Shown piece after piece: positions 50,340 through 53,893 of a DNA stretch of 64,000 nt. The translations under genes were made by a program, and so were the position numbers. The notes under the pieces were generated by a model, which saw only the letters and a program-made list of their open reading frames with translations, was not told the DNA's origin and did not search any database. This DNA is from Saccharospirillum sp. (GTDB lineage: Bacteria; Pseudomonadota; Gammaproteobacteria; Pseudomonadales; Natronospirillaceae). The number at the start of each line of letters is the position of its first letter. Positions within the stretch are counted from its first letter, which is position 1. Location: positions 620,001 through 684,000 of the forward strand of contig JAGYIL010000001.1 of assembly GCA_018402545.1 (NCBI GenBank), read 5' to 3'.

Positions 50340-50504
50340 ACCTTCGAACGGGTTTCTGGCGCGGAATGACTCGCCAGGCGTCAGAAGCCCGTTGTAACGG
50401 CCCCTCAGCGACACCAAAGCACACCATATTTGAGACCTCAAACAACGTTTGGTCTGTTATAAAAAGGGATAATGATCCGTTAACAGACTGAAGGGAGCTG
50501 GCGA

Positions 50505-53102
50505 GTGTCCAGGTATAACAGGAAGAACATAAGCCCGTTGCGGGCCTTTTTTTTGATCACATTAATCAGTGGTGTATTGGCGGGCTGTAATAGCAATAGC
50601 GAGCAGTTCAGCGATTCTGACGACTCGAACGCCGATTCCCAAACCACCGACCCGGTTTCATCCACCGATGGTGACACCACCGAAGACCCGTCGGACGACA
50701 CACCCGAAACCTCAGACCCCCTCCCGCCGCAGCTAGCCGACCAGACGCTGGTGCTTCAATACCAGGCCAGCATAGCGGGCACCATTACCTTCAGCGGAAG
50801 CGACGACCCCGAAAGCGATCCGCAACTGAGCATCATCTCTGACCCGACCCGGGGAACCCTTGAGTTGGTGGACCCAGCCACCGGCCAATTCGAATACGAG
50901 CCGGTTGACTCCGATGCCTGGGCAGGCGACAGCTTCACCGTGCAGGTAGACGACGTGGGGCTTCAATCTCAGGTGCGCACCATAACGCTCGAATTTACCG
51001 ATGAGACCGTGCCAACCCTGACGCTCATGCCTGGGAATGCCGCTGAGAATGTCAGCGTGGAAACCCGGTTAAGTGCCCAATCGGATGTTCCTATTGACCC
51101 GGCTACCCTCAGCTACACAGACAACGGCATCTGCGACGGCAGCGTACAAATCAGCAGCGATAACTTCGCCAGCTGCCACGGCATAGCCAGTCACAGCATT
51201 GAAGCGGGTAATCGCCTTGAGTTCACCCTGGCCACCTCGCTGGACGCCAATGCCGACTACAGTTGGCGCTTAACAGACGCCGTAACCTCCGTTTTTGGCA
51301 CCCCAATAGCAGAAGATACCTCCACCTTTACCACTGTGGGACAGACGCTGTTCATCTCTGAAGTGGGCGCTTCCCCCTATGTGAACATCATGCGATGGTT
51401 TGAACTCTATAACGCCGGTTCTACCCCTCTGAACCTGGCCGATTATGAGCTGCGCAGCCCCGGTGTCGATGTTGTAAACGGTTGGGCCACTGTGGATAGC
51501 CGTACCTTTGCGTTCCCCAATGTGCAAATTGCCCCGGGCCAGTACCTGGTGGTGCGGGCGCAAAGCAGTTATTCGAATTCAGAGGCGGAAGACACCGCCC
51601 AGGTTATCCACCTCGACGACGAACAATGGCGCCCCCATTGGAACGGCAACGGCTTTCTGGAAATTAACCGCCTGAGCGATGGCGCAACCATCGACTACGT
51701 CAGCTTCGGGTCTGCTCCCAGCCCCAGTGAAGCAGACGCCTGGACGGGCAGTTCCGTGGCAGCCCTGCCTACAGCAGGCGACAGCTTTGGCCAGAGCATC
51801 GGCCGCGATGCCTTTCTGACCGACACCGACTCGGCCGCAGACTGGACTCCTTACAGCTGGGCGACAGTCGGCGGGCCTAACGACGTATGCGGCACGGAAG
51901 ACCTTGACCAGGATGGCATTCCCGATTGCAACGAACAGCCCGGCAGCACCTTTGCCGGCATGCCGCTCTATGAGTGGGGCGCCCGGGCCGGCAGGGCCGA
52001 TATCTTTCTGGAAGTCGATTACGTCGACTCGACCGACGACGGTAACCTGCCATTCGACGAAGGGGTTCAGCCGCGCCGCGAAGCCCTGCAGAAAGTCATC
52101 GATGCCTTTGCCGCGAAAAACATTGCCGTGCACATCGACGCGGGCGACCTGTTCGACGAAAGCCCCGGCCTAAACCCGGCCAATTTCGATCTGGGCGGCG
52201 GGCAGGAAGTACCCTATGCACTGAGCATCGACTTCAGCCCAACGGGCAGCCAGGCGAGCTTCTTTGACTACAAGGCCGCCTATTTCGACTACAAACGGCT
52301 GCCGATCTTTCATTACGTTCTATTCAGTACCTCGCGCAACGCCGACGGGTCTGCCGGTTCATCCGGTATTGCCGAAGTGATCGGCAACGACCTCATCGTC
52401 TCGCTAGGAAGCTGGGGCCTCGACAGCACAACACAGGCCAGAACCAACGCGCTGATCAACTTTCAGGCCAGCACCCTGATGCACGAGCTGGGGCATAACC
52501 TCAGCCTGCTTCACGGCGGTGACGACAACGCAAACGCCAAACCCAACTACCTGAGTATTATGAATTACCTGTACCAGCTGAATGGCCTGCCGGAGATTGG
52601 CAACAACGAAGGCGACCGGTATTTCAGCGACTACAGGCCTGCCGGCGGTTGCGAAGGCCAGTTGGTCGATGGCCCCTACGGCGACCCGGCAAACTTCCGG
52701 ATGGACTTTTCCGATGGCAGCTCCGTTGACCTCGACCCGGCCAACCTGGATGAAACCCTGGGCCTTGGCCGCCCGGGCTCAGGCCCGGTCGACTATAACT
52801 GCAACGGCGACGACACCGAGACGAACGTGAACGCCTCTACCACCTTCAGCGACATTCTGGCCACCGGCGCAACGACCATGACCGACCACGACGACTGGAG
52901 TAGCCTGGTGATCGATTTTGGGGGCTACAACGAATGGAACAACTACGGTGCCAGCCTGCAAAGAACCACCAGCCAGCGCCAGACCAACGCCATTCTCAGG
53001 TTTGTGGGGCCAGACAACACCGACCGCCGCCCCTACATAGCCGAGCCAAGCCCACCGGCTGAACTGCTCGAACGAATCCGCTCCCACAAGGTGGCACCAT
53101 GA
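50505..53102 (+). CDS. Secreted metzincin-type metalloprotease lipoprotein with lamin-tail domain
   Basis: 865-residue lipoprotein: lipobox Leu-Ala-Gly-Cys with Cys28 as lipidation site, then an acidic Ser/Asp/Thr-rich linker (29-75). Next come a cadherin-like repeat (about 75-165), an Ig-like domain (about 167-265) and a lamin-tail domain (about 275-400, Phe-Ile-Ser-Glu-Val to Phe-Glu-Leu-Tyr-Asn-Ala-Gly). The catalytic zinc motif is His-Glu-Leu-Gly-His-Asn-Leu-Ser-Leu-Leu-His, with His660, Glu661, His664 and His670, followed by a Met-turn-like Ser-Ile-Met-Asn-Tyr. That pattern defines a metzincin peptidase. GTG start with AAGGGAG upstream. Low-complexity acidic regions suit a marine surface protein. 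Coupled with the next small gene. Confidence 0.82.
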   Translation: MSRYNRKNISPLRAFFLITLISGVLAGCNSNSEQFSDSDDSNADSQTTDPVSSTDGDTTEDPSDDTPETSDPLPPQLADQTLVLQYQASIAGTITFSGSDDPESDPQLSIISDPTRGTLELVDPATGQFEYEPVDSDAWAGDSFTVQVDDVGLQSQVRTITLEFTDETVPTLTLMPGNAAENVSVETRLSAQSDVPIDPATLSYTDNGICDGSVQISSDNFASCHGIASHSIEAGNRLEFTLATSLDANADYSWRLTDAVTSVFGTPIAEDTSTFTTVGQTLFISEVGASPYVNIMRWFELYNAGSTPLNLADYELRSPGVDVVNGWATVDSRTFAFPNVQIAPGQYLVVRAQSSYSNSEAEDTAQVIHLDDEQWRPHWNGNGFLEINRLSDGATIDYVSFGSAPSPSEADAWTGSSVAALPTAGDSFGQSIGRDAFLTDTDSAADWTPYSWATVGGPNDVCGTEDLDQDGIPDCNEQPGSTFAGMPLYEWGARAGRADIFLEVDYVDSTDDGNLPFDEGVQPRREALQKVIDAFAAKNIAVHIDAGDLFDESPGLNPANFDLGGGQEVPYALSIDFSPTGSQASFFDYKAAYFDYKRLPIFHYVLFSTSRNADGSAGSSGIAEVIGNDLIVSLGSWGLDSTTQARTNALINFQASTLMHELGHNLSLLHGGDDNANAKPNYLSIMNYLYQLNGLPEIGNNEGDRYFSDYRPAGGCEGQLVDGPYGDPANFRMDFSDGSSVDLDPANLDETLGLGRPGSGPVDYNCNGDDTETNVNASTTFSDILATGATTMTDHDDWSSLVIDFGGYNEWNNYGASLQRTTSQRQTNAILRFVGPDNTDRRPYIAEPSPPAELLERIRSHKVAP

Positions 53103-53695
53103 AACCGGCTCTCGCGTTGGGCGGCGCACTCTTGTGCGCCACCCTGGCCTCGGCTGAATCGTGGCCTGCGGCCAACATCAACCTAACCACCGGCCCCACT
53201 GAAACCGGCGTAGCCATCTCCATCAGCAAAGAGGGCCTGCACCTGGGCCAGACCAGCCTGGAACCCTGGCCTTTTGAGGCCCCTAGCTGCACAAACTGCA
53301 CCCTCACCCTGGAACGAGACTTCAGCCCGGTAGGGCCAGACCGAACCCTGCAACTGACCGCCCCGGGCGCAGCCAGCCCCACCTGGTTCTTCGCAGAACG
53401 CCTGCGGCTGCCCGCCAGCTTGCCCGGCAACGCCACACTGAGAGCCCAGCCCGGCAGCCCCGGCCTAAGGCTGGAAGCAGAGGGCGAACAGGCAACGTTG
53501 ACCGCAGGAGAGGCCGTTTCACTGAACAACTGCCATTACCACCTAATCTGGCACAGCCAGCCAACAACGCCTGCTAACCCAACCGCGGAACCGGCGCCAG
53601 CCCAGCAATCCGGTGGCGTAGCACCCGTGCCCCAGCAAACCGTCATCGCGGAAGACCCAACTCGCCTGATTCAAATACAGGGCCAGTGTAGTTAG
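53099..53695 (+). CDS. Small exported protein of unknown function
   Basis: 198 residues, not recognised. A signal peptide covers about 1-19 (Ala-Thr-Leu-Ala-Ser-Ala before Glu). The mature part contains a Cys-Thr-Asn-Cys pair and a later Asn-Asn-Cys-His-Tyr-His, so disulfides or metal binding are possible, then a Pro/Ala/Gln-rich low-complexity tail and a final Gln-Gly-Gln-Cys-Ser. Its ATG overlaps the metalloprotease stop by four bases, so the two are made together; it may be a periplasmic inhibitor, chaperone or substrate of that enzyme, which is speculation. Confidence 0.7.
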   Translation: MKPALALGGALLCATLASAESWPAANINLTTGPTETGVAISISKEGLHLGQTSLEPWPFEAPSCTNCTLTLERDFSPVGPDRTLQLTAPGAASPTWFFAERLRLPASLPGNATLRAQPGSPGLRLEAEGEQATLTAGEAVSLNNCHYHLIWHSQPTTPANPTAEPAPAQQSGGVAPVPQQTVIAEDPTRLIQIQGQCS

Positions 53696-53816: not shown

Positions 53817-53893
53817 GGGCCCTTAGCTCAGTTGGTTAGAGCATCCGACTCATAATCGGCAGGTCCTGGGTTCAAGTCCCGGAGGGCCCACCA
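53817..53893 (+). tRNA. tRNA-Ile2 with CAU anticodon (lysidine type)
   Basis: 77-nt cloverleaf including encoded CCA: acceptor GGGCCCT/AGGGCCC, D arm GCTC/GAGC, anticodon loop CTCATAA, T arm CTGGG/CCCGG with a TTCAAGT loop. Anticodon CAT is at 53851-53853. The acceptor stem has C4-G69 and C5-G68, the pairs that TilS recognises in tRNA-Ile2, whereas elongator tRNA-Met has U-A/A-U there. It should therefore read AUA after lysidine modification. U27-C43 is mismatched. Assignment against tRNA-Met rests on these base pairs. Confidence 0.85.

Follow-up and report, generated by a model that had tools for sequence, protein, structure and literature searches.

A small partner gene overlaps the stop codon of a lamin-tail, metzincin-like protease gene in Saccharospirillum and accompanies much of a conserved protease family

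We analysed a window of 64,000 nucleotides from a Saccharospirillum sp. genome (contig JAGYIL010000001.1, positions 620,001 to 684,000), in which the forward-strand open reading frame (ORF) at 50505-53102 begins with GTG and encodes a predicted lipoprotein of 865 residues, composed of cadherin-like and immunoglobulin (Ig)-like domains, a lamin tail domain (LTD), a calcium-type acidic motif and a metzincin-like protease domain. The combination of LTD and protease is that of a conserved family, of which this protein is one member. The new element is a second, coupled gene, here called the partner (53099-53695, forward strand, 198 residues), whose start lies inside the protease stop codon in an ATGA overlap (53099-53102). 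A sequence-only reading made earlier of the same DNA described the lipoprotein and made no mention of the partner, although of the two features the partner tells us more. By analogy with Mep72/BamI or AprA/AprI, the pair is best read as a protease of the cell surface together with an inhibitor or escort dedicated to it.

Linkage of the partner gene to a conserved protease family

A scan of the contig collection with the single window protein as query found no relative, and a scan with the family alignment returned 72 loci. The two patterns used in the latter lie at the calcium-type motif and the first protease strand, so that conservation at both places arises partly by selection. The loci belong mostly to Gammaproteobacteria (Pseudoalteromonas, Shewanella, Vibrio, Ferrimonas, Psychromonas, Kangiellaceae and others), with further representatives in Burkholderiales, spirochaetes, Riflebacteria, Campylobacteraceae, Myxococcales, Acidobacteriota and, weakly, archaea. 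The aligned set comprised 59 proteins, that of the window included, and left out duplicates (L007, L039, L040 and those of a repeat search), a second Vibrio penaeicida strain (L036) and loci with cut ORFs or without the zinc-motif pattern; a 51-protein set further omits eight near-copies. The LTD was found in 47 of the 59 by the family profile and in 39 of the 51 by the Pfam LTD profile, and all 47 share a constant unit in which the LTD is followed by the calcium-type motif and then the protease. The combination, which the sequence-only reading had called unusual, is therefore that of a conserved family and not a one-off.

The N-terminal Ig/cadherin part is variable and is absent from a same-genus relative of 624 residues (L004), which is identical to L007 of Saccharospirillum sp. 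MSK14-1. A loose pattern places a lipobox in 45 of the 59 proteases, although four of these (AANC, L059-L062) look false and several other rows are either truncated or uncertain in their start. The window protease has one match in its own genome at E≤1. The protease occurs in five of the 22 genomes of its taxonomic family and is matched in nine of 293 sampled genomes of its order, its own genome being counted in both, with two of the nine matches spanning only about 35 motif residues. A branch lacking the LTD (L055 and L057-L062, from Colwellia, Aliikangiella, Kangiellaceae and one Pseudoalteromonas) consists of proteins of 1054-1124 residues, with no partner detected. Salinibius halmophilus (L006/L088) carries a second, tandem LTD-protease copy whose frame ends right after the zinc motif (HELGHNLGLRHGD then stop); it looks like a decaying paralogue, and the four-member partner profile described below found no match in these loci.

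A profile built from four Saccharospirillaceae partners matched, beyond its members and their duplicates, at 22 further loci (E 1e-12 to 0.008), and every one of these 22 matches is a gene starting at the protease stop. An enlarged 30-member profile, searched against 2310 ORFs, recognised an adjacent partner in 31 of 75 loci, 30 of them members by construction and one (L017) a non-member, and it also matched a tandem duplicate at the Shewanella corallii locus L013. In 30 of these 31 cases the offset of the partner start relative to the protease stop ranges from -32 to +3 bases; at the remaining locus (L003) it is -59 for the first possible start or +4 for an inner ATG. Two divergent Burkholderiales partners were also recognised, L043 by the four-member profile (E 5e-5, with no match by the 30-member profile) and L041 by eye. 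The 47 LTD-type proteins thus divide into 32 with an adjacent partner (30 by the 30-member profile, L043 and L041), three with an unlinked partner, and 12 in which none was found (L005, L033, L034, L037, L038, L044, L045, L047, L048, L049, L056 and L066), and a partner is absent from all 12 rows in which no LTD was detected (L046, among these, is truncated). A control with reversed sequences gave four matches to the partner profile (E 6e-5 to 0.017), all of them reversed partner ORFs, and weak matches were therefore not trusted without a position beside the protease. That the partner is a chance ORF was rejected, since three homologues in the window's taxonomic family overlap or abut the protease and share the Cys residues.

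Co-occurrence was examined in whole genomes, with up to 31 candidates per genome scored in one search and up to eight in the other, so that absences are no proof. Of 39 genomes reached through the loci, the window's included, 24 matched the partner profile at E≤0.01, in one case weakly (G337, E 0.007). Two of the 39 hold a second copy, in tandem in Shewanella corallii (L114, at locus L013) and separate from the protease in Psychromonas (L115); the tandem copy appears by eye to have a signal peptide without a lipobox, like the window copy. Among 108 Pseudoalteromonas genomes, 27 carry the LTD-type protease and 33 the partner, with both in 27, the partner alone in six, neither in 75 and the protease alone in none (Fisher test 5e-20, without correction for descent, and inflated by relatedness). 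Each of the 33 partner-bearing genomes has one partner match; a 28th protease match, in G337, is of another type and not LTD-type. The two genes are adjacent by coordinates in 22 of the 27 pairs and lie on different contigs in the other five (G306, G313, G316, G379 and G400). In the protease tree the three of these five unlinked proteins that it contains (L012, L021 and L024) form one clade beside the linked L010 and L027, with support of 100/98 for the joint branch; this clade is nested among linked proteases, and the link was therefore probably lost there while the partner was kept. In the P. flavipulchra / P. peptidolytica group (L110, L111, L112) a partner stands alone, away from the protease, near a gene that by eye resembles a TonB receptor.

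The partner itself is a predicted secreted protein. Its AlphaFold model is all beta, with a mean predicted local distance difference test (pLDDT) score of 77.8 and a predicted template-modelling score (pTM) of 0.67, and its CxxC motif (Cys64 and Cys67, 53288-53299) is invariant in the 30 aligned partners. A loose pattern finds a lipobox in 24 of the 30, and several others look like lipoproteins by eye. The family evolves fast, with a median pairwise identity over 29 loci of 18%, compared with 54% in the protease core; the identities of the two correlate at 0.91, a value that common descent alone could give. Across the 30 partners, no convincing family was found in Pfam (best E 0.0029, in one of 30) or NCBIfam (best E 0.0041 in one of 30; a helicase model in three of 30, best E 0.0056), and these matches were taken as chance. 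The best PHROGs match for four partners (E 0.012) covers residues 1-20, the signal-peptide stretch, and was discounted in the same way. Pfam includes the AprI-type serralysin inhibitor family, and no Pfam inhibitor family matched any of the 30 partners at E≤1; likewise, none of the 12 Protein Data Bank (PDB) sequences matched by the partner profile at E≤10 is an inhibitor. A PDB match to a carbonic anhydrase (E 0.0021) stands without other support and was put down to chance. The fold matches listed for the partner model do not include TIMP, an absence that excludes no fold. A tRNA-Met (CAT) gene lies shortly 3' of the partner gene, at 53817-53893.

Domain architecture and zinc site of the protease

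The protease GTG is preceded by a Shine-Dalgarno-like AAGGGAG (50491-50497), a plausible ribosome site. The signal peptide (50505-50588) ends in the lipobox LAGC, with Cys28 as the predicted lipidated residue, judged from a loose pattern together with the sequence. It is followed by a Ser/Asp/Thr-rich linker (50589-50714) that appears disordered, with pLDDT below 50 across most of its length. The AlphaFold model as a whole has a mean pLDDT of 84.4 and a pTM of 0.78, and ten-residue block means over residues 71-810 range from 70 to 98 and mostly exceed 88. A terminator-like hairpin with eight consecutive T lies at 50533-50545, within the signal-peptide codons; an attenuator was rejected there, as the hairpin folded in context is no stabler than shuffled sequences (z 0.07).

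Residues 71-166 (50715-51002) adopt a cadherin-like fold in the model, matching P-cadherin (4zmx) with a Z score of 9.3 and a root mean square deviation (rmsd) of 2.8 over 95 aligned residues. The Pfam cadherin families gave no match to the window protein at E≤10, and Cadherin_4 and Cadherin_5 are found in 17 and 16, respectively, of the 51 family proteins scanned, a set that contains the window protein. The next domain (residues 166-277, 51000-51335) is Ig-like and matches Big_5 (PF13205) at 29.9 bits against a cut-off of 23.6, with SbsC (2ra1) as a fold match (Z 11.8, rmsd 2.5, 97 aligned). The central region scores above the gathering threshold as an LTD (PF00932, residues 280-368, 51342-51608; E 2e-9, 38.2 bits against 34.3), and with a family profile made from residues 279-450 the match extends over 280-450. 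The cadherin-like, Ig-like and lamin-tail assignments of the sequence-only reading all hold, as does its description of a lipoprotein with the LTD inside and a metzincin-type C-terminal part. Its suggestion of a cell-surface protease directed at host, prey or environmental protein is supported in part, by this architecture, while surface exposure, activity and substrate stay putative. Between the LTD and the protease domain sits the sequence DLDQDGIPDC (residues 466-475, 51900-51929), a DxDxDG motif of the calcium type that may form a calcium site, as judged from its sequence. D466, D468, D470 and D474 are kept in 59 of 59 aligned proteins, partly by selection since a scan pattern lies there.

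The protease domain (residues about 498-805, 51996-52919) contains the zinc ligands and catalytic Glu of an HExxHx5H site in HELGHNLSLLH (residues 660-670, 52482-52514), followed after the third His by the Met-turn SIMNY (residues 684-688, 52554-52568). H660, E661, H664, H670 and M686 are kept in all 59 aligned proteins, partly by construction because the rows were motif-filtered, and the zinc motif is also present in 23 of 27 weaker loci, with L020 (where the contig end cuts it), L065, L073 and L075 lacking it. The zinc site and Met-turn read earlier from the sequence are thus present, but the Gly of the metzincin signature HExxHxxGxxH is replaced by Ser667, and we call the window copy metzincin-like for this reason, while most of the family has Gly.

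The curated metzincin profiles in Pfam are all sub-threshold with the window protease: Reprolysin_3 scores 17.7 against 22.4 bits (E 0.0055), Reprolysin_5 14.3 against 27 and Peptidase_M10 11.9 against 24. In the PDB, the 59-protein family profile picks up metalloproteases of the snake-venom, serralysin and matrix types over the zinc-motif region only (best E 0.00026), together with weak extra matches of the Ig/cadherin part. In the model, the protease domain has pLDDT mostly above 90, and this confident domain contains the catalytic helix (residues 644-665) together with the region of the Met-turn. At the level of profile scores and model confidence, neither outcome named as refuting by the sequence-only reading appeared, be it a central region that is no lamin-tail fold or a zinc site missing from the model. 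The matches listed for a fold search with the whole protease are Ig and cadherin domains. We consider it very likely that the window protein is a zinc protease of the metzincin type.

Proposed working of the pair and its alternatives

We propose a two-gene module of an outer-membrane-type lipoprotein protease and a dedicated small regulator. The protease would be exported by Sec and lipidated at Cys28, with the flexible linker and the two Ig/cadherin-type domains holding it away from the membrane; the LTD and calcium-type motif would form a neck bearing the zinc protease head, and the LTD would probably place this head at the surface or the substrate. The partner would be translated from the same, presumably shared, message through the stop/start overlap and would likewise be exported; it would bind the protease and keep it inactive, or the cell protected, until the place of work is reached. 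The speed at which the partner evolves, its close coupling to the protease and its persistence once unlinked are what one would see in a dedicated binding protein. We consider it likely that the partner acts on the protease in some way. That it is mainly an inhibitor or restraint, making the pair a surface protease and regulator module, is a narrower proposal, for and against which the balance is nearly even.

Several observations weigh against this narrower proposal. Twelve of the 47 LTD-type proteins lack a detected partner, including L005 from Salinibius, in the window's own taxonomic family, and six of the 33 partner-bearing Pseudoalteromonas genomes show no such protease. The window partner has no lipobox, whereas most other partners carry one, and the CxxC motif is missing from the divergent partners L041 and L043. 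No inhibitor-like fold emerged from the partner model, for which Foldseek found no match at E≤0.001 and the best VIA match was to an unrelated protein (Z 5.2, rmsd 7.5, 120 aligned). On the protease side, the window copy has Ser at the signature Gly, and nine proteases of the set have Asp at position +2, a residue that in Escherichia coli keeps lipoproteins at the inner membrane. Finally, as regards the precedent, the authors leave open whether BamI inhibits Mep72 (PMC4334185).

The alternative that survives best, possible although unlikely, is that the partner acts as a chaperone or foldase specific to this protease, needed for its folding or export without inhibiting it, as CpaB does for CpaA. 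In Acinetobacter, CpaA is a metallopeptidase whose membrane-tethered cognate protein CpaB is encoded immediately downstream and is required for its type II secretion (PMC4713064). The frequent lipobox among partners suggests that they too are membrane-tethered, and GspD scores above cut-off in the window's genome. CpaB, however, is described there with a transmembrane anchor and an assigned SRPBCC-type domain, while the partner has an all-beta model and is usually a predicted lipoprotein (a comparison of CpaB by description only), and the window partner is without the lipobox that would tether it.

It is improbable that the two genes are merely co-transcribed and that the partner has an unrelated envelope function of its own. 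The six Pseudoalteromonas genomes with a partner and no detected protease, and the extra Psychromonas copy away from the protease, would suit such independence, but the partner is present in all 27 protease-bearing Pseudoalteromonas genomes, five of them unlinked, and lies directly downstream where linked.

Still less probable is that the partner is a substrate or effector that the protease cleaves and releases. The model for this comes from Listeria, where the metzincin gene mtz is directly followed by that of the lipoprotein Tim and Mtz is implicated in cleaving Tim from the cell (PMC8235301). The lipobox of most partners is in keeping with this arrangement, but the window copy, having none, offers no lipid anchor from which to be released. 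The Listeria pair also differs in being Gram-positive and at a phage-derived locus, with Tim resembling TIMP by Phyre2 (PMC8235301).

We consider it equally doubtful that the window protease domain is weakened or dead through the Ser at position 667 and that the protein now serves adhesion. This position, Gly in 54 of 59 proteins, is Ser in three (the window, L052 and L056) and another residue in two, but zinc ligands, catalytic Glu and Met-turn are all retained, and L052 shares the Ser yet keeps its adjacent partner. A different mechanism, with a comparably slight chance of being correct, would make the pair an undescribed class of protease and regulator in which the partner's nearly invariant CxxC / P-x-G loop acts as a thiol switch on the catalytic zinc; if so, the surface protease would stay inactive until the CxxC forms its disulfide under the oxidising conditions of the cell exterior.

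Relation to known systems and role of the lamin tail domain

The proposed pairing of a surface protease with its own inhibitor or escort has a parallel in Mep72/BamI of Pseudomonas aeruginosa. There a metzincin-type protease is co-transcribed with a small partner encoded next to it, and this partner binds the protease and, in E. coli, alleviates its toxicity (PMC4334185). The systems differ in gene order, with bamI preceding mep72, and in the prediction that BamI is partly unfolded; Mep72, moreover, is secreted and has carbohydrate-binding domains, with no LTD described for it there. The NCBIfam Mep72 model matches the window protease only in the zinc-motif region (10.7 bits against a cut-off of 645), and BamI and the partner were set side by side by description only. 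AprA/AprI similarly couples a zinc protease, of the serralysin-type alkaline kind, with a dedicated periplasmic inhibitor (PMC4334185, PMC8235301), although AprA is exported through a type I secretion system of its own (PMC4334185). The searches described above (Pfam at E≤1 with 30 partners, PDB at E≤10) found no relationship of the partner to AprI-type inhibitors.

The LTD was reportedly proposed by Mans et al. in 2004 to hold secreted hydrolases at the surface or the substrate. LTDs are known from secreted bacterial hydrolases of various kinds (PMC6085458), and a eukaryotic or nuclear-lamin link for the window protein was rejected for that reason. The ExeM-type nucleases described there are likewise secreted hydrolases with an LTD of unsettled role; they differ in being nucleases and not proteases, and in having the LTD at the N terminus. 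ExeM without its LTD degrades DNA more slowly in vitro and is almost wild-type on plates (PMC6085458). One further paper describes another LTD nuclease (PMC8289736), and a second gives an LTD protein in a list only (PMC7457808). The window's genome encodes a second LTD protein (L134 158-2719, near 1.195 Mb), with the LTD assigned by Pfam and the ExeM-type nuclease by eye. Such a protein would be in line with the LTD serving more generally to keep secreted hydrolases at the surface or substrate. No paper joining a lamin tail with a metzincin was found in the literature searched, from which subscription papers were mostly absent.

Across the conserved set described here, the LTD keeps a constant place at the neck of a predicted surface protease, which mostly comes with a second, dedicated protein. 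This makes it possible to test, in non-pathogenic bacteria, both what the LTD does and how a metzincin-like protease at the surface is controlled. The partners, which have no convincing match in Pfam or NCBIfam, could be described as a family now. So far unnamed, the partner accompanies the protease in many related bacteria and may restrain it.

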